Source: an uncultured Bacteroidales bacterium
Lineage (GTDB): Bacteria > Bacteroidota > Bacteroidia > Bacteroidales > FEN-979
Length of the DNA stretch: 64,000 nucleotides
NCBI GenBank assembly: GCA_903945175.1
Contig: CAJAUM010000113.1
Location: 1 to 64,000, forward strand
Direction: 5' to 3'
The position numbers and the translations under genes were made by a program. Below, piece after piece: positions 4,958 to 52,250 of this stretch. A model generated the notes under the pieces. That model was not told where the DNA came from. It searched no databases and worked only from the letters and a program-made list of their open reading frames with translations. Each line of letters starts with the position of its first letter. The first letter of the stretch is position 1.

Positions 4958-7918
4958 ATGACTAAAAAATCTGAAGAACGTCAGGATCTAACCGACTATC
5001 GCTTCAAAGACAAAAAGCGCAAATACATCACTCCAGCCGGACTTGCCTCGCAGGGCAAAGTGGAAGATGCCCCCAAACTCCAGTTTGAGTACAATCCGCA
5101 CCTGCCTCCGGTATTAAGGTTCGATGAAACGGGACAAACCGATAAATTACCCGAATTACTCGAAAAGGCATTACGGGGTCCCCTTACTGAAGAAGAAGCC
5201 AATATTCTGTCAGATGCTCTGAAAAAACATGAACCCTGGCTCGAATGGACAGGTAAACGAGAAAAGAAAATCTTTGAGGTTGATCCCATTGCGCTTCATA
5301 TTCATGAACGAGTGAGTACACAGGCCATTTTGAAAGTTGCAAAACGCGAGAATATACAACGTGATCTTTTTGCCGACCCCGAAATGGAATATCGCGAAGC
5401 AATTAAATTCTACCAATATGAAATGGATTGGGCAAACCGCCTTATTCTCGGTGATTCTTTACAGGTAATGGCTTCGCTTGCCTACCGCGAAAACCTTTCA
5501 GGACAGGTGCAAATGATCTATTTCGACCCACCTTATGGCATCCGGTTCTCCAGCAATTTCCAACCATTTGTAGGTAAGCGTGATGTGAAGGATAGTAATG
5601 ATGATTTAACTCGTGAACCTGAGGTTATTAAAGCTTTTCGTGATACATGGACACTTGGCATACATAGCTATTTGAGTTATTTACGAGATCGCTTTATTCT
5701 TGCAAGAACACTTTTAAAAGATTCAGGGTGCATTTTTGTTCAAATTGGTGATCAAAATGTCCATCTGGTAAGAGATGTTTTGGATGAAGTCTTTCATCGA
5801 GAAAATTTTATTTCACTTATTACATTCAGAAAAACTGGAGGAAAATCAGGAAATCTTTTAGATAGTGTAAATGATTATTTGCTTTTTTACTGTAAAAGCA
5901 AAGATGAACTAATAAATTCCGGGAAATACAAACAATTATTTGTTAAGGAAGATTACAATCCGAGGATCCATGATGATTTTAAATGGTTACAACTCAAAGA
6001 TGGATCAATAAGAAAACTTACGCCTAATGAAAAAGAAGGACTAATTCCCATCCCCAATGATGCGTTTCCTTTTCAATCAGTTTCGGTTAATTCACAAGAT
6101 CCAAATGAGAATACCACTATTTCAGTTAATTTAAATGGAAAAAATATCAATTGTCCAAGTACACGACATTGGTCTGTTGATCCTCAATTACTTGAAACAA
6201 GAGTGGCTGATTCTGAACGAATCTTCATTGAAGGTAATTCGCTTAGGAGAAAGGACTTTTTCTATGAACGACCTGGTTCTCCTGTAACAAATATTTGGAT
6301 TGATACGATGGGGGCAACAGATATGTATTATGTTGTCCAAACTTCACCAAAAGTAATTGAAAGATGCATATTGATGTCTACTGATCCTGGCGATCTTGTG
6401 CTTGATCCAACTTGTGGAGGTGGTACAACATCATTTGTTTGTGAATCGCTTGGTAGAAGGTGGATTTCGATTGATACCAGTAGAGTTTCAATTGCCTTGG
6501 CAAAACAAAGAATTTTGACTTCTCGTTTTGCTCATTACTCTTTGAAGGACGACGAACGCCCTCCATCAGAGAATAACTCGTTTAAAAATGAACATGCTAA
6601 ATATTTAAATCTTGAAAAAATCGCACAAAACCAATCAATAGATCCCCTTTTGGTCAAATACGGTCCAATACTCGAAAAACATCTTGAACAAGTCAATTTT
6701 GCATTACAAAAGATTGATCGGGAAGTTAGGACTAAACTCTTGTTTAAATTACATTTCAAACAAAGAAATGAAGGCAAAAAGAGTATTACTGAAGCAGAAG
6801 AAAAGCGTTGGAATTTGCCAGTTGAGAAATTTAAGCATTGGCAAGTGCCATTTGATGTCGACGAACTTTATCCTTTTGAATTTAGAAACGCCGTTGAAGG
6901 TTACCGAAGAATATGGAGGCAAAAGATGGATGATGTTAATGCCTGCATTCAAGCCAATGCGGAACAGATTGAATTGGTTGACAAACCTGAAAAAGTAAAT
7001 GGAGTTGTACGCGTGAGTGGTCCATTTACTGTTGAAGGAGTAATGCCTGTTGAGTTTAACCTCGATGCCGATGGTCCGATCTCAGAATTTGATGAAGTTC
7101 TTGAGACCTTCGACCAGGCTACCAATGCAGTTTCATTCATCGATAATATTCTCCTTTTATTAAAACGAGAAGGAGTTATTTTCCCCGGAAACCGAAAAAT
7201 GAGCTTTACCGAACTTCGAACTTATGACAGCGGTGGAACCATGATCAATTTTGAAGGGGAATGGGTGGCCGCTGAAAATAAAGTCAAAAAAGTTGCAGTC
7301 AGCGTTGGCCCGCAACATGGGCCGGTAACCGGATGGCAGGTGGAGAATGTGATCCGGACTGCCTACAAACACGGGTTCGATGATGTAGTATTCGCCGGTT
7401 TTTCTTTCGATGCCGAAGCGCAAGCAGCCATTGAAGACGATTCCAATCCACAAGTGAAACTGCATCTGGCCCATATCAGCCCCGATATATTGATGGGCGA
7501 CCTGTTGAAAAGCACGGGTAGCGGCCAAGTATTTACCGTCATGGGAAGCCCACGAATAAAGTTGCTTTCGGAAAGTGATGGTTCTTTCCAGATCAAGATG
7601 GATGGCGTAGATATTTATGACCCGATTGGGAATGTGCTGATAGATACCGGCGCCGACAAGGTGGCAGCCTGGTTTATAGACAGCGACTACGACGGTCGCA
7701 CTTTCTGCATCACGCAGGCCTTTTTCCCCGATCGTGATGCTTGGAAAAAACTTGAAAAGGCATTAAAAGGGGTGATTGATCCTGATAAATTTGAAGCCTT
7801 CAGCGGAACTTTGTCGCTCCCTTTCCCGATGGGAGAACATAAAAAAGCAGCGGTGAAAGTCATTGATCCACGCGGAAATGAGGTAATGAAGGTGTTATCA
7901 TTAGAAAAAAACTATTGA
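4958..7918 (+). CDS. Type III restriction-modification methyltransferase subunit (Mod-like, beta-class N6-adenine MTase)
   Basis: DPPYG (motif IV) precedes LDPTCGGGTTSFVCESLGRRW (motif I), the beta-class order; a Res-like gene follows immediately. Confidence 0.9.
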   Translation: MTKKSEERQDLTDYRFKDKKRKYITPAGLASQGKVEDAPKLQFEYNPHLPPVLRFDETGQTDKLPELLEKALRGPLTEEEANILSDALKKHEPWLEWTGKREKKIFEVDPIALHIHERVSTQAILKVAKRENIQRDLFADPEMEYREAIKFYQYEMDWANRLILGDSLQVMASLAYRENLSGQVQMIYFDPPYGIRFSSNFQPFVGKRDVKDSNDDLTREPEVIKAFRDTWTLGIHSYLSYLRDRFILARTLLKDSGCIFVQIGDQNVHLVRDVLDEVFHRENFISLITFRKTGGKSGNLLDSVNDYLLFYCKSKDELINSGKYKQLFVKEDYNPRIHDDFKWLQLKDGSIRKLTPNEKEGLIPIPNDAFPFQSVSVNSQDPNENTTISVNLNGKNINCPSTRHWSVDPQLLETRVADSERIFIEGNSLRRKDFFYERPGSPVTNIWIDTMGATDMYYVVQTSPKVIERCILMSTDPGDLVLDPTCGGGTTSFVCESLGRRWISIDTSRVSIALAKQRILTSRFAHYSLKDDERPPSENNSFKNEHAKYLNLEKIAQNQSIDPLLVKYGPILEKHLEQVNFALQKIDREVRTKLLFKLHFKQRNEGKKSITEAEEKRWNLPVEKFKHWQVPFDVDELYPFEFRNAVEGYRRIWRQKMDDVNACIQANAEQIELVDKPEKVNGVVRVSGPFTVEGVMPVEFNLDADGPISEFDEVLETFDQATNAVSFIDNILLLLKREGVIFPGNRKMSFTELRTYDSGGTMINFEGEWVAAENKVKKVAVSVGPQHGPVTGWQVENVIRTAYKHGFDDVVFAGFSFDAEAQAAIEDDSNPQVKLHLAHISPDILMGDLLKSTGSGQVFTVMGSPRIKLLSESDGSFQIKMDGVDIYDPIGNVLIDTGADKVAAWFIDSDYDGRTFCITQAFFPDRDAWKKLEKALKGVIDPDKFEAFSGTLSLPFPMGEHKKAAVKVIDPRGNEVMKVLSLEKNY

Positions 7919-7920
7919 TC

Positions 7921-10900
7921 ATGACAAAGAGAAATTCGCAAAACGATCTCTTTGAAGATCAACCCCCTGTGATCGTGGTAGATAACCCGATCCTTTGTAA
8001 TCCTTTTGAAGAGCCGGATAAATACTGGTATTATAACGAGAATGGCGAACCGTTGCAAATTCCCACTCGTCGTCCTGCTAGTTATTTCTTTAAAGACAAA
8101 CGTGCTTATACGGGTCAGACAGCACTGTTTGCTGAAGAACATCGTGAAGATCTACAGTTGATCAATCTCCTGCGAAATGATGTTCGCCGATGGAGGAAGT
8201 CGGGGTATGAAATGGCAACACCAATCACAAAGAAACTACTTGATTACTGGTCCAGGCCAAACCGTGATCGCAGGTTGTTTTTCTGTCAGCTTGAGGGTAT
8301 AGAAACCATCATCTATATCAATGAAATTTTATCTTCAAATAGGAAAACAAGATGGAATCCGGAATTAACCAACGAGGATTTTCAGAAACTTAAACAAGGC
8401 GTGAAGCCTTCATTTATTGATGATTCAACTGTTAAAGATGTTTTGCTTCCCCGACTGATCGATATTCCCAATGAGACAGAATATTCCAATCTTCACCGTT
8501 ACGGATGCAAAATGGCCACTGGCAGCGGTAAGACAGTGGTCATGGCCATGCTCATTACGTGGGCTTTCTGCAATCGTGGTTCTCAACCATCGGATGTTCG
8601 TTTTCCGGATGCTGCGATGATAATTTGCCCTAATCTGACAATTCGCGAGCGTTTACAGGTACTTCGTCCTGATATAGCTGAAAATTATTACCGGAAGTTT
8701 GACCTCATCCCATCTTCACTAATTCCATTGCTACAACGAGGAAAGGTAATGATTAGCAACTGGCATCAATTAGGCGAAGAATCGGAAAATGTGGAATCGG
8801 GAGCAAGTTACCGGGTAGTTAATAAAGGGATTGAAAGTGCCGACGCTTTTTCCCGGCGGGTGCTTGGCGAATTATATGACCGATCGCCAATAATGGTACT
8901 GAATGATGAAGGTCATCACGCCTACCGGCCGAAACCTGTTGATATCGATTCAGATTTATCCGAAGAAGAAAAAAAGGAGCGCGAAGAGGCAACAGTATGG
9001 ATTAACGGATTGGATAAGATTAACAAAGCCTGCGGTATTCGTTTTTGTGTGGATATGTCTGCAACACCATTCTATATCAAAGGTAGTGGCTATGTGGAAG
9101 GATCGCCCTTCCCCTGGATTGTCAGTGATTTCGCCCTGGTGGATGCCATTGAATCAGGAATTGTAAAGATTCCCAGGATTCCAGTTAGTGATATAACAGG
9201 TCGCCCTGAACCGCAATATTTCAATTTATGGAAATACATTACAGCCGATCTGAAAGCCGGTCAGAAGATGCAAGGGGGTCGGCCAAAGCCAGGTGTTGTA
9301 TGGGAAAGAGCAAATGGTGCTTTGGTTCAGTTAGCAGGTCAGTATAAAGAAAGGTTTGATTATTTCAAAACCGGAGATGAACGTAATTTAGCCATTCCAC
9401 CTGCTATGATCATTGTTTGTGACAACACAAATATTGCTGAATTGTTTTATCAGAAAATTTCTGGCGAACAAACAGAGGAAATTGAGGAAAAGGTAACTCG
9501 TGGGAGAAAAAAGGGAGAGACTAAGCTAACAAAAATTAAATCCTATGGAAGGGGTGAACTATTCCCCGAAATTTTCAGCAATACTGAAACTGCCTTAAAT
9601 TCTTTTCGCATCGACAACAAAGTGATGCAAGAAACCGACTCGGAAGAGGGCCAATCAAAAGATGAATCCAAGAAAAAAACCAGGCATATCGCCGATACGA
9701 TAGGTCAACACGGGAAACCTGGAGAACAGGTGAAATGTATCGTGTCAGTTCAAATGTTGTCGGAAGGCTGGGACGCAAACAATGTTACCCATATTTTTGG
9801 TCTTCGTGCGTTTGGAAGCCAATTGTTAATTGAACAAGTAGTTGGTCGTGGCTTACGTAGGATGAACTATACGATTGACAAGGAATCTAATATGTTTCCC
9901 CCTGAATACGTTGATGTTTATGGAATTCCATTTTCTATTATTCCATTTAAAGGTAGGCCCACCGGGAAACCGGAACCGGATGATAAACCTGTTTATCACG
10001 TTCGTGCACTTCCAGAGCGGGAAATCCTGAAAATTGAATTTCCCAATGTGGAAGGTTATGTGTTTGACCTTAAAAAAAACCTGATCCATGTTGATTTTGA
10101 AAAACTGGAAAAATTCGATTTAGAACCTCTTAAGGATCCCATCCAAACTTTCATCCAACCACAGGTAGGTATTCGTATGGGCGGGCCTGCAATCAATCCC
10201 GGATTAGAGGTTGTTACCCAGGATCGCAAAGCTTATTATGAAAGCAATCATTTGCAAACCATCAAATTTGAGATAGCACGTCAGATCGTAATTAACCTGA
10301 CTTATGGTAGAAATGATGCGCATTCCGGTTTAAAATATCAATCAAGGGCACAATTGTTTCCCCAGGCATTGAAAATAGTAGATTGGTACCTGAATACAAT
10401 GGTGAATTATATGGGATGTAATCCAAGTGAAATTGGTATAGTAGCATATTCCTCTAAAGTAATATCATTGCTTACGACTGCCATTGAACCGGCTAAACTG
10501 GAAGGAGAACCGCCCTTATTGCCACAATTGAATCGTTTTAAACCAATTGGGAGTACTTCATCAGTTAATTTTACCACTAAGAAAAACCCCAGGATAACAA
10601 TAAAGAGCCATATAAACATGATGGTTGGTGATACTCAAACATGGGAACAATCGGCTGATTTCATCTTAGAAGCAAGTGATAAGGTATTTTCTTATGTTAA
10701 GAATGATCATCTTGAATTCACGATTCCATATGAATATGAGGGAGTCCCACTTCATTATGAGCCCGACTTCATTGTAAAATTAAGAAATGGAGTCAATCTT
10801 ATACTTGAAATCAAGGGCTATGAAGACAATCAAACAAAGGCCAAACACCAAGGAGCACATAAATGGATTAGCGCAGTAAATAATTGGGGGAAATTGGGGA

Positions 10901-30960: not shown

Positions 30961-33822
30961 ATGGTTCCATTTCTTAAGCACGTAGCGCATTATCTGATTA
31001 GCGGATACAAAGATGAACTTTTTGATTTGTGCATCGTGCTGCCGAACCGCCGTGGTGGGTTGTTCCTTAGGAAATACCTCGCCGAAGAGATTGGCAAGGT
31101 GACCTGGGCGCCGACTATTTTTTCGATCGAGGACTTTATCTCGGAGATCGGCGGATTACAGGAGGTTGAAAATCTGCACCTGCTTTTTGAACTCTTTGCA
31201 GTTCACCGCGAAATTGAAGAAAATAGGGCGCAGTCCTTTGAGGAGTTTTTGCGATGGGGCCCGCAGTTACTCAGCGATTTCAATGAGATCGACCGTTATA
31301 TGGCCGATGCGCAGGAGCTGTTCACCACCCTCACCGAAGCGCGTGCCATTGCTCTTTGGAATTTGGATAATCAACCACTTACCGAATTTGAAACAAAGTA
31401 TCTGCACTTTTATCAATCGCTTTATCCCTATTATGATAAACTTACCCGGCGATTGCTTGCAAAAAATCAATCATATCAGGGGCTCAGTTTTCGCCAGGCA
31501 GCTGAAAATATTGAGAAATTTAAAGATAAACTGCCCTGGAAACATGTTTTATTTGCCGGATTCAATGCGTTAACCAAGGCTGAGGAGCATATCATCGGCA
31601 CATTGCATAAAAATGGGTATGCAACGTTGCTTTGGGATGCAGATCATTACTATCTTGACAACACCCAGCAGGAGGCGGGTGATTTTTTGCGTGACTGGGT
31701 GCGTAGGTGGCCTGTCAAGGATAGTGGCTGGATCTCTGATGATTTTGCAACCTCAGAAAAAAAGATAGAAATCATAGGCTCCCCCGATCCGCTGGGCCAG
31801 GTTAAATACTGCGGGAATATCCTGAAGGAAATTGCAAAAAATGGATTGGCCAACGAGAAAACAGCGGTGGTGTTGCTTGATGAAGGATTGCTGATTCCTT
31901 TGCTTAATTCGATCCCTGCTGAGGTGGATGCACTGAACATAACAGCGGGTCTCCCGCTTAAACAAACACCCCTTGCAGGTCTCTTCGAAGCGCTCTTCCA
32001 CCTTCATATGAATAGGGCCCGTTTCACCTATCTGGCTGACAAGGAAAAGGGGAAATACTACTACAAGGATGTGCTGAAACTATTGCAGCATCCCTATCTC
32101 CGGATGATGGCTGCCGGTTTGACGGAGGCCAACCTGTTCGCCTTGGATGAAATAATCGAGAACATTCGCAAGGGGCACAAGATTTTTGTTGGGATTGAAG
32201 AACTTCCAGCCGAAAAATCCGGTTTTTTCGGAATGCAGGTGACTTTCCTTGATTCAATCTTCGCTGCATGGAATGAACCTGCCGATGCCTTGAAATGCTT
32301 CAAGACCCTGATCGGGAACCTGAGAGGTGCTTCGATCGGACGAATGGATATGGAGTACCTTTTTGCCTTTTCCAAAATTGTCCATCAACTCAGTAATTTA
32401 CTTGAAGAGTTTGCCTCTGATCTTAAAATACCTGCATTTTACCAACTGTATCAACAGGTGATTGCCTCCACGAGTCTGCCGTTTTACGGGGAGCCGCTCA
32501 AAGGTGTTCAGCTGATGGGGATGCTCGAAACACGGACACTCGATTTTGAAAATCTTATCATTTTATCGTGCAATGAAGATTTGCTGCCGAGTGGCAAGAT
32601 CAATACCTCATTCATCCCGTTTGATATTAAAAAGAGTTTTGGCTTGCCAACCTATCGCCATAAGGATTCGGTGTATGCCTACCATTTTTACCGCCTCATC
32701 CAGCGTTCCGGCCATATCAGGATCCTCTACAGCACTGAGCCTGATCAGTTGGGAGGCGGCGATCGGAGCCGGTTCCTTCGGCAGATTTCCCGTGAACTTC
32801 CATTGTACAATCCGGGGATTGAAATCAGAGAGATGATCCTGAACACACCACCAGTCAGGGGCGAAGCATATCCCGTAATTGAAATTCAAAAAACCGGTGA
32901 AACATGGGCCGCATTGGAAGAGAAAGCCTCCGGGGGATTTTCTGCAACTTCTTTGAACGCCTACCGTAACTGTCCGCTGAAATTCTATTTCTCCGATATT
33001 GCCGGTATCAGAGAGCCAGATGATGTGGATGATACGATCGACGCGGCTGTGCTGGGCAATGCCGTGCATGAAGCGCTCTGTAACCTGTACAAACCATTGA
33101 TTGATAAGCCGATCTCAACTGCGATCCTAACTGATATCGAACAACAATCGGATGAGGCGGTTCTTAAGGCTTTCGGGAAAAAATTCAAGGGCTCAGATAT
33201 TGCTTACGGAAAAAACCTGTTGCTCGTCAATGTAGCAAAATTGATGGTGAAACGGTTTCTTCAGTTTGAAACCAACAATGTAAGGGAAATGGCCCGATCG
33301 GGAAATGGTTTTTCGGTGGCATTTCTTGAACAGTATCTCGAAACGCAAATCCAAATACACCATGGTTCTGCAGATAAAAGCATTCGCCTGAAAGGGCTGG
33401 TCGACCGTGTGGACAAGATGGATGGCTGGTGGAAAATCATCGATTACAAAACAGGGATCACCCAAGCTAAACAGCTAAAGGTGAAGGAATGGGATGCGTT
33501 GGCCGACCATGCTGAACTGAATATCGGGTTTCAGCTTTTATTTTATGGTTTCCTGTTGAGCAAGAGGTTTGACAACCCCATCAGTTCAAGTGCAGGTATT
33601 ATTTCGCTCAAGAAAATCAACGCTGGATTTACACCCGTATCGGTCCCTTCAGGCGAGCCTGGCAAGATGACGACCATGCTGGAGAATTCATCCCTGGCTC
33701 AATTCGAACACGTTATCCATAACCTTTTGCAGGATATCTATGATCTTTCAAAACCATTCAGCCAAACAAGGGACATTAAAATATGTGAACGTTGCCCCTA
33801 CATCAATCTTTGCGGACGTTAA
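30961..33822 (+). CDS. PD-(D/E)XK nuclease family protein (AddB-like)
   Basis: LCIVLPNRRGGLFLRKYL N-terminus, ILSCNEDLLPSGK, FSATSLNAYRNCPLKFYFSDIAGI, C-terminal DYKTG and CPYINLCGR Fe-S-type tail. Confidence 0.85.
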   Translation: MVPFLKHVAHYLISGYKDELFDLCIVLPNRRGGLFLRKYLAEEIGKVTWAPTIFSIEDFISEIGGLQEVENLHLLFELFAVHREIEENRAQSFEEFLRWGPQLLSDFNEIDRYMADAQELFTTLTEARAIALWNLDNQPLTEFETKYLHFYQSLYPYYDKLTRRLLAKNQSYQGLSFRQAAENIEKFKDKLPWKHVLFAGFNALTKAEEHIIGTLHKNGYATLLWDADHYYLDNTQQEAGDFLRDWVRRWPVKDSGWISDDFATSEKKIEIIGSPDPLGQVKYCGNILKEIAKNGLANEKTAVVLLDEGLLIPLLNSIPAEVDALNITAGLPLKQTPLAGLFEALFHLHMNRARFTYLADKEKGKYYYKDVLKLLQHPYLRMMAAGLTEANLFALDEIIENIRKGHKIFVGIEELPAEKSGFFGMQVTFLDSIFAAWNEPADALKCFKTLIGNLRGASIGRMDMEYLFAFSKIVHQLSNLLEEFASDLKIPAFYQLYQQVIASTSLPFYGEPLKGVQLMGMLETRTLDFENLIILSCNEDLLPSGKINTSFIPFDIKKSFGLPTYRHKDSVYAYHFYRLIQRSGHIRILYSTEPDQLGGGDRSRFLRQISRELPLYNPGIEIREMILNTPPVRGEAYPVIEIQKTGETWAALEEKASGGFSATSLNAYRNCPLKFYFSDIAGIREPDDVDDTIDAAVLGNAVHEALCNLYKPLIDKPISTAILTDIEQQSDEAVLKAFGKKFKGSDIAYGKNLLLVNVAKLMVKRFLQFETNNVREMARSGNGFSVAFLEQYLETQIQIHHGSADKSIRLKGLVDRVDKMDGWWKIIDYKTGITQAKQLKVKEWDALADHAELNIGFQLLFYGFLLSKRFDNPISSSAGIISLKKINAGFTPVSVPSGEPGKMTTMLENSSLAQFEHVIHNLLQDIYDLSKPFSQTRDIKICERCPYINLCGR

Positions 33823-35365
33823 GCGCCTCCTCAGAAAACACACAGGCTTCATAGGTATACAGGTCGGCCTGCTTCCATCCATCCCAGCCAATTCCAGCCT
33901 TGTCACGGGCGCAATGGCCCAGAAATTCATCTTTGGTCCATCCGGTTTCAGTGGCCACCTGAGGCAGGAACGTTCCGGAATAAAACCCTTTTTTGATATA
34001 TATTCCATGTTTCCCAAGTATGATCTCATTTGGAGACTGGATCTTTTTAAGCGGGGATAACACGGATATTTCGATATCGATTTGACCCAGTTCCCTCTCC
34101 TTCACAGGTTCAAACCGGTTATCTTCTGTTGAAGATGCCACTGCCATTTGCCTGATCAGTTTATAAAGAGGCATATCAGCTGAGAATCTGCCGATACAGC
34201 CCCGTAGCTCACCCTCTTTTTTAAGGGTGACAAAGGCGCCAGCCTTCATTTTCAGATTGTCGCTGTACAACGTTCCATCGTCTTCAGGAATCCTCCTTTC
34301 CCTGAGATAGGTTAGAATGGTGTTTCTGGCAATGTCAAGCAAAATGATTTTTTCTTCACGCGTGAAATCAAAACCAGTCGGATTGATGGCGCCTGGGGAG
34401 GTGCTGGCACCCGGCTTGGCTGCCTCACCGGATGTTGGATTGGTAACCGCAAGTGACCAATATCCCACCACCTGCTTTTTATCACCATACCCCGAATCAC
34501 CCGAATTCATGTACTGTACCGGCGAAATTTTCAGTCGGTCATTTCCTGAAGTCAAATACAGCATGGTCAGGATGGATGTCCATCCGCAGAGGTTGGTGGA
34601 GAGGTTCGGCACCCGTTTTTCTTCATATTTCTCAAGCAACTTCATCAATTCTTCCGGGGAGCCGGCAACGATGGCATCGCAGGTAGCCTTATCGGCCGAA
34701 TAGGCATCATCATAAGAGGGATAATGTGAAAAATCGGTGCTGAATACAAAAAGATTACGCTCGTTGAACCATGGTTTAAGCGCATCAGCAATTTTTTTGC
34801 ATGTCTGTGCTGATTGTGTACCGATGATGATAGGCACCAGATTAAAATCGTTCTTCAAATGGTACTGCAAAAAAGGTATTTGAACCTCCAGGCTGTGTTC
34901 AGTCCGGTCAGCCTCGCTATTGAAATTGAAAACCGTATGCTCACCGATCAGTTTGTCAGCCAGATCAATATTGACCTTCACCTTCCCAAGAGGGGTGATA
35001 TAATCCCCTTTGTTGTATACAGAGGCTCCATCGAATGAGATCTGGTGGCTTGATGCGATAACGAATACATTGTCATACAGGGCATTGGGGTCTACCTGGT
35101 TGTAGCCGCTTGCCGCCACCAGGCCCGAATAGATGTATCCGGCATGCGGGCATACGATACCCAGTACATGGTTCAACTCTTTTGGCTTGGCCCTTGCAAA
35201 CAGATTTGCAAGGGTCGACGAGAGTTCCTGGGCATTCGCGGGATAAAATCGTCCGGCTGCCGCTGTTTTCCGATCGATCTGATTTGGTTTGTTCTGGCCC
35301 GAACATCCCTGGCTGAAATTAAAAAATAGTCCCATAAGGATAAGACTCTTGAGGATGATGCGCAT
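33803..35365 (-). CDS. AmmeMemoRadiSam proteins B and A fusion (Memo-like + AMMECR1) with lipoprotein signal
   Basis: Memo part AAAGRFYPANAQELSSTL, CPHAGYIYSGLVAA, FVFSTDFSHYPSYDDA; AMMECR1 part GAFVTLKKEGELRGCIGRF and FLPQVATETGWTKDEFLGHCARDKAG; N-terminal lipobox-like FFNFSQGC. Confidence 0.9.
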   Translation of the reverse strand: MRIILKSLILMGLFFNFSQGCSGQNKPNQIDRKTAAAGRFYPANAQELSSTLANLFARAKPKELNHVLGIVCPHAGYIYSGLVAASGYNQVDPNALYDNVFVIASSHQISFDGASVYNKGDYITPLGKVKVNIDLADKLIGEHTVFNFNSEADRTEHSLEVQIPFLQYHLKNDFNLVPIIIGTQSAQTCKKIADALKPWFNERNLFVFSTDFSHYPSYDDAYSADKATCDAIVAGSPEELMKLLEKYEEKRVPNLSTNLCGWTSILTMLYLTSGNDRLKISPVQYMNSGDSGYGDKKQVVGYWSLAVTNPTSGEAAKPGASTSPGAINPTGFDFTREEKIILLDIARNTILTYLRERRIPEDDGTLYSDNLKMKAGAFVTLKKEGELRGCIGRFSADMPLYKLIRQMAVASSTEDNRFEPVKERELGQIDIEISVLSPLKKIQSPNEIILGKHGIYIKKGFYSGTFLPQVATETGWTKDEFLGHCARDKAGIGWDGWKQADLYTYEACVFSEEALNVRKD

Positions 35366-35407
35366 TGTTTCGTTAACTTTGAGCTAAATTCATTGTAAAG
35401 ATACGAC

Positions 35408-37564
35408 ATGCAGGCAAAAAATGCAATCCGTTTGATGCTGTTTGGCCTGGGTTTTTTGGCCATTGGAACCCAGATATACCTGATGCGGGAATTTCTGATC
35501 GTTTTTAGTGGCAATGAACTGATATTCGGGATCGTACTTGCATTGTGGATGCTCTTTACCGGAGCAGGCGCCTACCTGGGACGCCTCAGCCATTATCTCA
35601 GGGTGAAACTTGGATTTGCAGTGGTACTCCTGTTTCTAACCGGGCTATTCCCAACGCTGTTGCTCATTTCCCTTGATTTGATGAAGGTTTTGATGGTACC
35701 TGCCGGGAGTACAGCCAGCCTGTGGATGATCATCACCGCTGCTGCTGCTGTTCAGTTGCCGTTTTGCATTCTGAATGGATTTCTGTTCTCATTCCTCAGC
35801 GCATGGTCTTCCGGCAACCCACTGGCCGAAGCCTATTCATGGGAGTCCCTGGGAAGCATGGCTTCAGGAGCGCTCGTGAATTTCGTATTTCTATGGATAT
35901 TCGATCAATATCAAAGCCTGTTGTTGTTGACCACAGTCTATTTTATTCTGTTGTTGATATTCACCTGGCTGATGGCGCCCCGAAGCTGGTTTTACCTGGC
36001 GCTTGTCCCATCTCTTTCCCTCATTGGATTATTGCTGCTGGTCGATTTTAAAGCGTTTTCTGAAAAGTTCCTGTTCAGGGATCAGCACGTCATCTCAAAT
36101 ATGGGAACGCCCTATGGTCAGGTGGTTGTAACAAGAAATCAGGAACAGTATAATTTTTATGAAAACGGGTTGCTTCTGTTTTCCTCAGGAAATGAAATGG
36201 CCAATGAGGCAAATGTTCATTTGGCCATGGCGCAGCGTGAACGACCAGGCAGGGTTCTCTTGATTTCGGGCGGATATGCTGGAACGCTGGATGAGATTCT
36301 TAAATATAAACCCGTAGTTGTTGATTATTTGGAAATGAATCCTTCGCTCATCGGGATCGGTTCAAAATACACAAAACAATTGGATCATCCCTCCATCAGG
36401 GTGCATGAAATGGATGCGCGGAAATATATCCGGTTATCCCGGCAATTGTACGATGTGGTGCTTGTCAACCTGCCCCCTCCATCCACATTGCAGCTGAACC
36501 GTTACTACACGTTGGATTTTCTGAGTGAAATCAAAAAAGTATTAAAGCCCGGAGGGGTTATCTCGTATTCGCTTCCTACCGGCAGTGACTATATCAGCAA
36601 TGAGGCAGGCCGGCTCAACGCGTTACTCTTCCATACATTGAAACAACGTTTTAACCAGGCCTTGGTGATTCCCCTGGAACGGAACCATTTCCTGGCATCA
36701 GATTCATCGCTGAACATGGATATCCCCGCCCTGATCCTGAAAAAGGGAATCAAGACAGTATATGTCAATCAATTTTACCTTGATGTCGGACAACTTCGTG
36801 AACGGTCAGACTATCTTACCTCCCATATCACCCACATGCTGTCAGGGCATACCATCTTGTCAGGGTTTACCAACCGTGATTTTTATCCTTTGGCAACCTT
36901 TTACCAGAATTTATGGTGGTTAAGCTACTTTTCAGTCCATCCTGTGGCGATCATCACCGTTTTTATAATCATCCTCCTTTTGTTGCTGGCAAGTCTGAAT
37001 TCGGTCAGCGCCGGATTGTTTGCAGGTGGCTTCACCCTTGCTTCCACTGAGATCATCCTGATTTTTGGATTACAGGTATTGTATGGCTATGTTTTCCAGA
37101 TGATGGGATTGATATTCATGATTTTTATGGGCGGATTGGCGTTGGGAGCCGGAGTTGGGATAAAAATCTTCCGGATAAAGCCATCTACCTCCTACATGTT
37201 GTTGCAGGTTGGGCTGGGGTTATATTCCATATTGCTTCCTTTTCTTTTACTGTGGATGGGTGCCGGAAATATCAGTGGGATATATGTGCAGGTGACACTT
37301 TTTATATTTGCATTTCTGGTTTCATGGATAGTAGGTATTGAATACCGGCTCGCAGCCATGCTGACAAAATGTTCATCATGGAATGCAGTTTCCAGAAACT
37401 ACTCGGCCGACCTGTTTGGCTCAGGAATGGGGGCTTTTTTTGTAACGATGCTCCTTTTGCCCTATGCCGGGATTCTGGTGACCGGTATTTTTTTGGCGAT
37501 TCTGAACATTTTCAGTGCATTGATTCTTTTAATCAGAAGACCTAAATCCGTATCTTTGCGATAA
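35408..37564 (+). CDS. Multi-TM protein with spermidine synthase-like domain
   Basis: TM helices flank a SpeE-like Rossmann segment (RVLLISGGYAGTLDEILKYKPVVVDYLEMNPSLIGIG..., DVVLVNLPPPSTLQLNRYYTLDFLSEIKKVLKPGGVISYS). Confidence 0.8.
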   Translation: MQAKNAIRLMLFGLGFLAIGTQIYLMREFLIVFSGNELIFGIVLALWMLFTGAGAYLGRLSHYLRVKLGFAVVLLFLTGLFPTLLLISLDLMKVLMVPAGSTASLWMIITAAAAVQLPFCILNGFLFSFLSAWSSGNPLAEAYSWESLGSMASGALVNFVFLWIFDQYQSLLLLTTVYFILLLIFTWLMAPRSWFYLALVPSLSLIGLLLLVDFKAFSEKFLFRDQHVISNMGTPYGQVVVTRNQEQYNFYENGLLLFSSGNEMANEANVHLAMAQRERPGRVLLISGGYAGTLDEILKYKPVVVDYLEMNPSLIGIGSKYTKQLDHPSIRVHEMDARKYIRLSRQLYDVVLVNLPPPSTLQLNRYYTLDFLSEIKKVLKPGGVISYSLPTGSDYISNEAGRLNALLFHTLKQRFNQALVIPLERNHFLASDSSLNMDIPALILKKGIKTVYVNQFYLDVGQLRERSDYLTSHITHMLSGHTILSGFTNRDFYPLATFYQNLWWLSYFSVHPVAIITVFIIILLLLLASLNSVSAGLFAGGFTLASTEIILIFGLQVLYGYVFQMMGLIFMIFMGGLALGAGVGIKIFRIKPSTSYMLLQVGLGLYSILLPFLLLWMGAGNISGIYVQVTLFIFAFLVSWIVGIEYRLAAMLTKCSSWNAVSRNYSADLFGSGMGAFFVTMLLLPYAGILVTGIFLAILNIFSALILLIRRPKSVSLR

Positions 37565-37602
37565 TCCAATGTGAATCGGACGCTCTTAAAAACTACAGAT
37601 TC

Positions 37603-38760
37603 GTGACACAAAATTCCAAACGCCGATTTTTTAAATATAGCCTGGCTGGTATCAGTAGCGCCTTAACCGGATTGAACCCGTTGGATGTGATGGCTAAAAA
37701 ACTGACGCATATGGAGCACTCTAACATAGCCCCGGTTACCGGGCTTGGAAAATTCAGCAAAGAATCACCCTATGCAGTCGTCACGCCAAAGGGAGTAAAG
37801 TGCCAGATTTGTCCCAACAATTGTATCCTGAAAGAGGGATTGGAAAGCATTTGCAGGACCCACGTTGTAAAAGATAATACGCTCTATACCATTGCCTATG
37901 GCAATCCCTGCTCAGTTCATGTGGATCCGATTGAAAAAAAACCGCTTTTTCATTTTCTTCCATCCACACCGAGTTTCTCCATTGCCACGGCAGGCTGTAA
38001 CTTTGCATGTTTGAATTGCCAAAACTGGGAGATTTCACAGCAAAGCCCCCGAGACACCGACAACATCGAACTTTTCCCGGCAAAGGTTGTAGCGCAGGCA
38101 ATATCAAAAGGCTGTAAATCAATTGCCTATACCTACTCTGAGCCGATCGCATTTTATGAATATATGTTTGATACAGCCAGGCTGGCCAAAGCACAGGGAA
38201 TTAAAAACCTGCTCATTTCCAATGGCTTCATCAATGAAAAACCGCTCCTCGACTTAACCAAATATATTGATGCAGCCAACATCAATTTAAAATCTTTCAG
38301 CGATGAAATTTATGAGAAGCTCAACGGGGGCAGTCTTCAGCCAATCCTGAATACACTGAAGATTTTAAAGGCCGAAGGTGTCTGGCTGGAAATCACCACC
38401 CTCATCGTACCCGGCTGGACGGATGATCTTGCCATGATCAAAGAGATGTGCGACTGGCTGGTTAAAAATGGATTTACGGATACTCCGCTTCACTTCAGCA
38501 GGTTTCATCCACTCTATAAGTTAACCAGTCTCCCTTTTACCCCATTGGCCACACTCGAAAAAGCACGCGAAATCGCGTTAAAAACAGGGATCCAATATGT
38601 TTACATCGGGAATGTTCCGGGTACGACGGCAGAAAACACCTATTGTCCAAAATGTAAGAAGATCGTGATGGAGCGCCGTGGTTTTTCCATTTTGAATAAT
38701 AACCTGAAAAATGGTTCATGCAAATTTTGCGATACCAAAATTTCAGGGGTATGGGCATGA
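37603..38760 (+). CDS. AmmeMemoRadiSam system radical SAM enzyme, with twin-arginine-like N-terminus
   Basis: CNFACLNCQNW (CX3CX2C), N-terminal CQICPNNC, C-terminal CPKCKK...CKFC; N-terminus MTQNSKRRFFKYSLAGISSALTGL. Confidence 0.88.
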   Translation: MTQNSKRRFFKYSLAGISSALTGLNPLDVMAKKLTHMEHSNIAPVTGLGKFSKESPYAVVTPKGVKCQICPNNCILKEGLESICRTHVVKDNTLYTIAYGNPCSVHVDPIEKKPLFHFLPSTPSFSIATAGCNFACLNCQNWEISQQSPRDTDNIELFPAKVVAQAISKGCKSIAYTYSEPIAFYEYMFDTARLAKAQGIKNLLISNGFINEKPLLDLTKYIDAANINLKSFSDEIYEKLNGGSLQPILNTLKILKAEGVWLEITTLIVPGWTDDLAMIKEMCDWLVKNGFTDTPLHFSRFHPLYKLTSLPFTPLATLEKAREIALKTGIQYVYIGNVPGTTAENTYCPKCKKIVMERRGFSILNNNLKNGSCKFCDTKISGVWA

Positions 38761-51130: not shown

Positions 51131-52216
51131 TTATTTATATCCGATTGCCGCATAACCAACCCAATGGTGCATATTGGCGTTGCCTGTCCTTCCCATTTTC
51201 AGATCTTCAACAGGAATTGCAGGCTGCATAATTGAATTGCTGTATCCCAACAGCATCCCTTTCAAGGGATTTGATCGCAGGTTTTGTTCCATGTAAAGCG
51301 CAGTGAGTAATCCGAAAGGCACTGCATAACGACCGCACCAGCTCCAGCGATAGGTTCGGTAATTGGTGTCCTGCACAGTGTATTCGGAAAACTGTCTGAG
51401 TTTAGGCTTTGAAATATTCCCCAGGAGACAATTGTTGATGATCTCATATTCATGGGCCAGCGCCTTGTTGTATCCGCCGCTATCGCAGCCGTAAGGTGCA
51501 TAATTCTGCCCGCCCCAATCTTCGTCTCCATAATGCACCGCATCGTTAGAAATGACGATGGCAACATCCTTGTTCCATCCGAGATTCATCTCCTGAATCA
51601 CTTTGGTAATGGCCAGAGACAGCGAAGCCGCAAGTGACTCCATTCTGCTGGACGACATGTATGGAACCAGAATCGGAACGATCTCCACTTTGCGGTTATA
51701 GTATTGCAATACCGGGATGATCGCTTCGATGGAATGTTCGGCTTGCTGAAGTGAATCGTGGATGATATAGGTCGAACGGGGCAGCTGGTTCAGGAGCTTT
51801 TCTCTGAGGATGGAGACCTTCACCGGTCCATAGGGCTCAGCCCATTGGTCAAAACTGTCAAAGACCATTTTGTCCTCCAGGCCAAACTTCCTGGCTTTAT
51901 GGGCAACCCCGATGAGGATCACCGTTGAAGCCTTCACGTTGCGTAAAACAACAGGATAGAGCCATCCTGCATAAGTATAATCATCGTGCGGACAAATCGC
52001 CACTTTCCATGGCGTGAATTTTTTTATGTCGTATTTCTTCCAGGAATCAAGGATTTTTTGACCCTGAATATTAAAAATGCGGTTCATCACTGAATCCATT
52101 TGCCATGACTGCGTTGGGAAACCAATCAAATCAACTGGTTTACGCACCTTTTCAGCCGGTTTGCTCCCAACGAGGAACATCAGGAAGATCATGAAAAACC
52201 AATTCCGGAATACCAT
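51131..52216 (-). CDS. Memo-like protein (AmmeMemoRadiSam protein B), with N-terminal signal/anchor
   Basis: VAICPHDDYTYAGWLYPVVLRNVKASTVILIGVAHKARKFG, AEHSIEAIIPVLQYY, ISNDAVHYGDEDWGGQ. ATG at 52216 gives a hydrophobic N-terminus; the track start is a GTG at 52240. Confidence 0.82.
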   Translation of the reverse strand: MVFRNWFFMIFLMFLVGSKPAEKVRKPVDLIGFPTQSWQMDSVMNRIFNIQGQKILDSWKKYDIKKFTPWKVAICPHDDYTYAGWLYPVVLRNVKASTVILIGVAHKARKFGLEDKMVFDSFDQWAEPYGPVKVSILREKLLNQLPRSTYIIHDSLQQAEHSIEAIIPVLQYYNRKVEIVPILVPYMSSSRMESLAASLSLAITKVIQEMNLGWNKDVAIVISNDAVHYGDEDWGGQNYAPYGCDSGGYNKALAHEYEIINNCLLGNISKPKLRQFSEYTVQDTNYRTYRWSWCGRYAVPFGLLTALYMEQNLRSNPLKGMLLGYSNSIMQPAIPVEDLKMGRTGNANMHHWVGYAAIGYK

Positions 52217-52236
52217 TGCGATATATGATTTTTTTG

Positions 52237-52250
52237 TCACGCGTCACGTT
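52237..52250 (-). repeat. Possible degenerate 2-unit heptamer site
   Basis: TCACGCG TCACGTT. Confidence 0.4.

Follow-up and report, generated by a model that had tools for sequence, protein, structure and literature searches.

A predicted exported form of the AmmeMemoRadiSam gene set and its co-inherited SpeE-like membrane partner in a Bacteroidales genome

Can a radical S-adenosylmethionine (SAM) enzyme belong to the outside of the cytoplasmic membrane? Such catalysis is assigned to the cytoplasm on the grounds that SAM and low-potential electrons are found in that compartment, and to our knowledge the cofactor and electrons for these enzymes are known only inside cells. The question is raised by a locus in a stretch of 64,000 nucleotides of the Bacteroidales (FEN-979) contig CAJAUM010000113.1. 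We call this whole stretch the window, and all positions refer to it. The locus encodes the AmmeMemoRadiSam set, in which a Memo-AMMECR1 fusion and a radical SAM enzyme (rSAM) both begin with predicted export signals. A membrane protein with a spermidine-synthase-like (SpeE-like) domain is encoded between them.

33803..35365, minus strand: Memo-AMMECR1 fusion, 520 residues, predicted to be exported by the general secretory (Sec) type of signal (TIGR04336, TIGR04335, PF01875, PF01871)
35408..37564, plus strand: SpeE-like 14-helix membrane protein with an inserted spermidine-synthase-like domain, 718 residues (AlphaFold model, conserved partner)
37603..38760, plus strand: AmmeMemoRadiSam rSAM, 385 residues, GTG start (TIGR04337)

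The SpeE-like gene is the middle of the three, divergent from the Memo gene and co-directional with the rSAM gene. The original prediction of an AmmeMemoRadiSam set with a polytopic SpeE-like gene in between was borne out: the open reading frames lie where it had placed them, and they match NCBIfam and Pfam models over cut-off. The rSAM scores 356.7 bits against TIGR04337 (AmmeMemoSam_rS, cut-off 220), the Memo part 233.5 bits against TIGR04336 (AmmeMemoSam_B, cut-off 26), and the AMMECR1 part 168.2 bits against TIGR04335 (AmmeMemoSam_A, cut-off 99). The Pfam domains in the three genes are Memo, AMMECR1, Spermine_synth, and Radical_SAM. The AmmeMemoRadiSam family itself is already known and is widespread, and the window shares with it the same three families, over the curated cut-offs and adjacent in the genome. 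Compared with the unsignalled sets, what differs is the export signals on Memo-AMMECR1 and the rSAM and the co-inherited 14-helix SpeE-like partner.

37615..37701, plus strand: twin-arginine-like signal SKRRFFKYSLAGISSALTGLNPLDVMAKK of the rSAM (near-invariant R7 and F9 in 34 relatives, third-position excess)

Export signals were assessed by motif, hydropathy, and conservation. A search with the rSAM profile fetched 80 relatives. Most relatives are metagenome assemblies; one carrier, Mangrovibacterium marinum DSM 28823 (locus L093), is culturable. The segment of the window rSAM that resembles a signal of the twin-arginine translocation (Tat) pathway is in reading frame and upstream of the conserved domain. 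Its motif, SKRRFFK, is readable in the KR or the RR register. In the exported clade, R7 and F9 are the sole near-invariant residues of the segment, within the motif [S/T/N]-[K/R]-[R/K]-x-F-[L/I]. The strict Tat-like motif is found in 76 of 88 exported-clade rSAMs (KR 52, RR 13, RK 11). It is found in none of 43 rSAMs outside the clade and in 4 of 1,432 other open reading frames of the fetched loci, all four RR, and is therefore more than chance. When signal codons were compared in 15 close pairs, third positions had 0.54 differences per site and positions 1 and 2 had 0.27, with an excess in 15/15 pairs. Since third positions vary twice as fast, the segment is translated. The twin-arginine-like signal first proposed for this one rSAM is thus conserved across its relatives. 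A misassigned start, which had been raised as a concern, is contradicted by the near-invariance of R7 and F9 and by the third-position excess. Lack of signal conservation had been named beforehand as evidence against the proposal; conservation extends across phyla, and members from both Bacteroidota and Desulfobacterota carry signals. In the Desulfobacterota, RR was read in 17 of 20 rSAMs of the exported score band (best E <=1e-131, a cut chosen by us), mostly in canonical form, and signals were read in 0 of 15 lower-scoring control proteins.

The machinery for such a signal is widespread. TatC is present in the window's own genome, in 9/9 near-complete genomes tested, and in 35/40 overall. 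Two Omnitrophota rSAMs (L125:7923-9026 and L129:146-1249) have a Sec-type hydrophobic N-terminus in place of the Tat-like motif, and no TatC was detected in these two genomes, both of them small assemblies. Tat export of a folded iron-sulfur (Fe-S) protein would make sense because the rSAM has eleven invariant cysteines. Tat-exported Fe-S proteins, including TtrB, share a signal of the (S/T)-(R/K)-R-x-F-L-K type on a folded Fe-S protein, and the KR variant is that of TtrB (PMC6708511). However, these proteins are respiratory electron carriers, and we found no radical SAM enzyme among them in the open-licence literature.

Some observations on the rSAM N-termini stand apart. A delta-proteobacterial group has lysine in place of the second motif arginine (RK), and the rSAM N-termini of loci L052-L131 thus include many naturally occurring Tat-like signals that are not RR. 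Only the rSAMs of L032 and L033 have an extra CXXCH (residue 71), placed after the Tat-like signal and ahead of the conserved domain. As a sign of c-type haem, this motif was discounted; a C-terminal CXXCH is also seen in unsignalled rSAMs.

35303..35365, minus strand: signal MRIILKSLILMGLFFNFSQGC of Memo-AMMECR1, lipoprotein-type or signal peptidase I type (sequence; relatives' hydrophobic signals)
34445..35272, minus strand: Memo domain with metal ligands H74, H107, and C260 (profile alignment to 7kq8)
33836..34345, minus strand: AMMECR1 domain with an LRGCIG motif (Pfam, alignment)

The fusion had been predicted to carry a lipoprotein-type signal. The hydrophobic Sec-type signal is conserved, but its lipoprotein character is less clear: the lipobox FSQGC of the window is weak, and many relatives have a Cys at the equivalent position, others a signal of the signal peptidase I type. 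By a fixed automated rule, 61 of the 67 testable Memo/AMMECR1 proteins of exported loci have a Sec-type signal, with three more recognized by eye, and signals were seen in 0/4 Memo proteins read from unsignalled sets. Human MEMO1 is an iron-binding protein with the ligands H49, H81, and C244 (PMC11081632), and H74, H107, and C260 align with these in the profile alignment to 7kq8. Like MEMO1, the window protein belongs to this fold family and has all three iron ligands; unlike MEMO1, it is fused to AMMECR1 and has an export signal. In several delta-proteobacterial cassettes (L104, L112, L113, L115-L117, L119, and L123), AMMECR1 is a separate protein that carries a signal itself, and no Memo protein was seen at these loci. 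In L102, a gene at 7019-7936 with its own RR signal and a lipobox-like Cys lies between Memo-AMMECR1 and an unsignalled rSAM.

The association of the signal with the SpeE-like gene is found in two samples. The three-part cassette recurs in varied gene orders and strands. With the SpeE-like gene counted anywhere in the genome, at the locus or away from it, the rSAMs comprise 77 with signal and SpeE, 43 with neither, 5 with the signal only (several of them small or draft genomes), and 0 with SpeE only. The SpeE-like gene, suggested as a linked partner, therefore accompanies 77/82 signal-bearing and 0/43 unsignalled rSAMs. For 9 of the 14 signal-bearing loci without SpeE nearby, the gene is elsewhere in the genome. 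In four genomes where the rSAM belongs to the clade but is unsignalled, no SpeE-like gene was found. Among 396 genomes of the window's phylum, a full-length SpeE-like protein, at >=430 bits, is present in exactly 8, and the next best match scores 138 bits. The same 8 genomes are exactly those with a signal-bearing rSAM; the signal is absent from the other rSAM N-termini read in this set (about 83 copies). The association was repeated in an independent sample, 198 genomes of the Desulfobacterota, the phylum of the genome with locus L127. Here, 74 genomes have a SpeE-like protein. An rSAM whose score falls in the exported band occurs in 69 of these 74 and in 2 of the 124 genomes without SpeE. 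The tree separates the exported rSAMs from the unsignalled clades and shows nested signal losses, and there are genomes with separate unsignalled and exported sets (for example, G260, G268, G338, and G120). Clustering of all neighbouring genes turned up no family that recurs in many loci other than the three of the cassette. The nuclease, sigma factor, and DegP-like genes that flank it are common only to close relatives.

35411..36040, plus strand: first membrane half, helices 1-7 (AlphaFold model)
36047..36847, plus strand: SpeE-like domain, predicted extracytoplasmic, with DxxDP replaced by NLPPP (Foldseek, alignment to 1uir, lysine plus arginine (K+R) topology)
36941..37534, plus strand: second membrane half (AlphaFold model, topology, internal repeat)

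The AlphaFold model of the SpeE-like protein (predicted local distance difference test, pLDDT, 89.7; predicted template modelling score, pTM, 0.90) has seven helices, a spermidine-synthase domain, and then about seven helices. Helices 1-6 are homologous to helices 9-14 (HHalign internal repeat: probability 98.3%, E 2.6e-14), and in the model these two six-helix halves look like a transporter plan. The best Foldseek matches of the inserted domain are spermidine synthases, with 1uir at the top (E 1.2e-10). One set of loops has a K+R mean of 18.5 and the other 2.4, in the same sense in 36/36 sequences. Because the K+R-rich loops, inside by the positive-inside rule, lie on the opposite side, the domain between the membrane halves is predicted to face outward. 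As a control, single-half membrane SpeE proteins (504-544 residues) show the same outward K+R pattern, so this orientation is not unique to the two-half family. PRK03612 (NF002956) and NF037959 likewise combine a spermidine-synthase domain with a homologous unit of membrane helices. In contrast to these, the window protein has two membrane halves around the domain, has lost DxxDP, and scores below both cut-offs. Nothing on point about a membrane SpeE was found in the open-licence literature.

Twelve loci (L059, L072, L081, L083, L091, L093, L094, L096-L099, and L107) have an extra domain of about 110 residues and 3-4 helices fused ahead of the SpeE-like protein. It has a conserved His-X13-His pair, and a free-standing version is present in L073:4343-4684. 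The domain shows a weak resemblance to models of cytochrome b561 and ferric reductase, with Pfam scores below cut-off. Its own model is of low confidence (pLDDT 74), and no match in the PDB was found by fold or profile. It may be a b-type cytochrome, a weak hint at electron supply. Among other SpeE proteins, L136-L149 encode single-half (7 helix) membrane spermidine-synthase proteins, several of which keep the catalytic DLPDP, and their charge pattern puts the enzyme domain outside. L193-L196 encode second-type SpeE paralogues of about 770 residues near an unsignalled AmmeMemoRadiSam rSAM, and their neighbour genes resemble RsmI and MazG by motif.

What kind of system do these features suggest? 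We consider it fairly probable, from sequence, that the cassette is an envelope-located (extracytoplasmic) form of AmmeMemoRadiSam. The rSAM would acquire its Fe-S clusters in the cytoplasm and then be exported folded by Tat, and the Memo-AMMECR1 fusion would leave through Sec, to become a lipoprotein or a periplasmic protein. Their place of action would be the outer face of the cytoplasmic membrane, together with the SpeE-like protein, whose domain would face that side too. The SpeE-like protein would most likely supply SAM to the exported rSAM or take back the nucleoside by-product. This role is proposed as the simplest one because a transporter-like protein with an outward domain of nucleoside-binding type accompanies a SAM-using enzyme; with its nucleoside-end residues kept, the domain may bind a SAM-like nucleoside. 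The genes, the signals, the SpeE orientation, the retained metal and cluster ligands, and the co-inheritance are predictions with good support; actual export, SAM-dependent radical chemistry outside, and the SpeE role are what we infer from them. The complete version is more tentative: an extracytoplasmic radical SAM machine with a Tat-exported rSAM and an exported iron protein, SAM fed across the membrane by the transporter-like SpeE protein, and, in some lineages, electrons delivered via a fused b-type cytochrome is possible but rather doubtful.

Several points weigh against this reading. The outside location of the rSAM is a prediction, and SAM transport by the SpeE-like protein is a proposal. 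No description of periplasmic SAM or of an exported radical SAM enzyme was found in the open-licence literature, nor was an experiment on any member of this system; five open papers each name AmmeMemoRadiSam a single time. The main caveat is that KR predominates in the Bacteroidota, most copies there having lysine in place of the first motif arginine, and that according to PMC6708511 no native KR cargo of Tat other than TtrB is known. Phylogenetically independent pairs number only 3, all concordant or undecided (p 0.25); with so few contrasts, this test cannot reach significance. In the Desulfobacterota, some SpeE paralogues are encoded at a distance from the cassette or have an unsignalled rSAM gene as neighbour. 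The exclusivity of SpeE to the cassette thus holds in the 396 genomes of the window's phylum, not in the Desulfobacterota, and the claim was narrowed because of these further paralogues. Finally, three loci (L038, L062, and L102) have an exported-type Memo with an unsignalled rSAM, so the export of Memo is not strictly tied to that of the rSAM.

These three loci also fit another arrangement. Memo-AMMECR1 and the SpeE-like domain would be outside, and the rSAM would act in the cytoplasm or at the inner membrane face, its weak Tat-like segment being a membrane-targeting device. The product would be handed across, perhaps by SpeE, whose halves are transporter-like. The cytoplasmic location of SAM and low-potential electrons, as generally known, is in line with this arrangement, as are KR motifs, which are unusual for Tat. 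However, Desulfobacterota members have textbook RR signals, the Omnitrophota use a Sec-type segment instead, and the unsignalled rSAMs of the clade are wholly without SpeE. We regard this arrangement as unlikely.

37996..38019, plus strand: radical SAM motif CNFACLNC (CX3CX2C), with C132, C136, and C139 in 34/34 (PF04055)

Slightly less likely still is an rSAM that is exported but no longer cleaves SAM and instead assists the iron protein Memo, either in Fe-S redox or by delivering metal. Human Memo binds iron (PMC11081632), and neither periplasmic SAM nor a low-potential reductant there was found in the open-licence literature. The enzyme itself points the other way. Besides CX3CX2C, eight further Cys are invariant in 34/34, in two groups flanking that motif, and the barrel motifs show little or no variation. 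These features and the TIGR04337 match well over cut-off suggest retained catalysis. By alignment, all metal and cluster ligands checked are retained in Memo and the rSAM. The nearest solved radical SAM relatives by sequence are of the pyruvate formate-lyase activating enzyme family (3c8f, E 6.6e-11). That family is cytoplasmic, and the match covers rSAM residues 129-277 only, with the extra N- and C-terminal Cys groups outside it.

It is improbable that the SpeE-like protein is an outward aminopropyltransferase making or attaching a polyamine group in the pathway. The fold is that of spermidine synthase, and the residues at the nucleoside end are kept (E309 36/36, D336 35/36, H271 36/36). The second catalytic position keeps D in 12/36 and has E in 15/36. 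However, the first catalytic Asp is Asn in 24/36, and DxxDP is usually N-x-P-E/D-P in relatives; the window, aligned to 1uir, has NLPPP and lacks both aspartates (N354, P357). The scores are also far under the aminopropyltransferase cut-offs: 120 bits against PRK03612 (NF002956, cut-off 472) and 28.1 bits against the fused major facilitator superfamily (MFS)/spermidine synthase model NF037959 (cut-off 40). Because the catalytic aspartates are changed, a spermidine synthase role is unlikely, and the protein is probably not a polyamine synthase. An ordinary cytoplasmic set with misassigned starts or chance signals, for which the GTG start and in-frame ATGs downstream could be cited, is very improbable given the motif conservation, the third-position excess in 15/15 pairs, and the co-inheritance with SpeE and with Memo signals.

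51131..52240, minus strand: second Memo-family protein with an N-terminal hydrophobic signal and no AMMECR1 domain (PF01875 83 bits, cut-off 27)

The window's genome has only two Memo proteins, both inside the window and both with hydrophobic N-terminal signals. A search of this genome found no further AMMECR1 copy, and the matches listed for the AmmeMemoRadiSam rSAM include no second one over cut-off. In L053, L054, L055, and L088, relatives of the second Memo are encoded within a few kb of the cassette; their link to it is uncertain.

Memo and AMMECR1 are conserved to humans. We know of no primary biochemical function for either, and they are long-standing orphans. If the extracytoplasmic form of AmmeMemoRadiSam is real, its conservation and co-inheritance in two or more phyla would imply either that SAM or an equivalent can be had beyond the membrane, or that the chemistry of AmmeMemoRadiSam differs from what is assumed. 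The export and the SpeE-like partner would then give a handle on these orphans, and the genomes that hold both unsignalled and exported sets permit their direct comparison.

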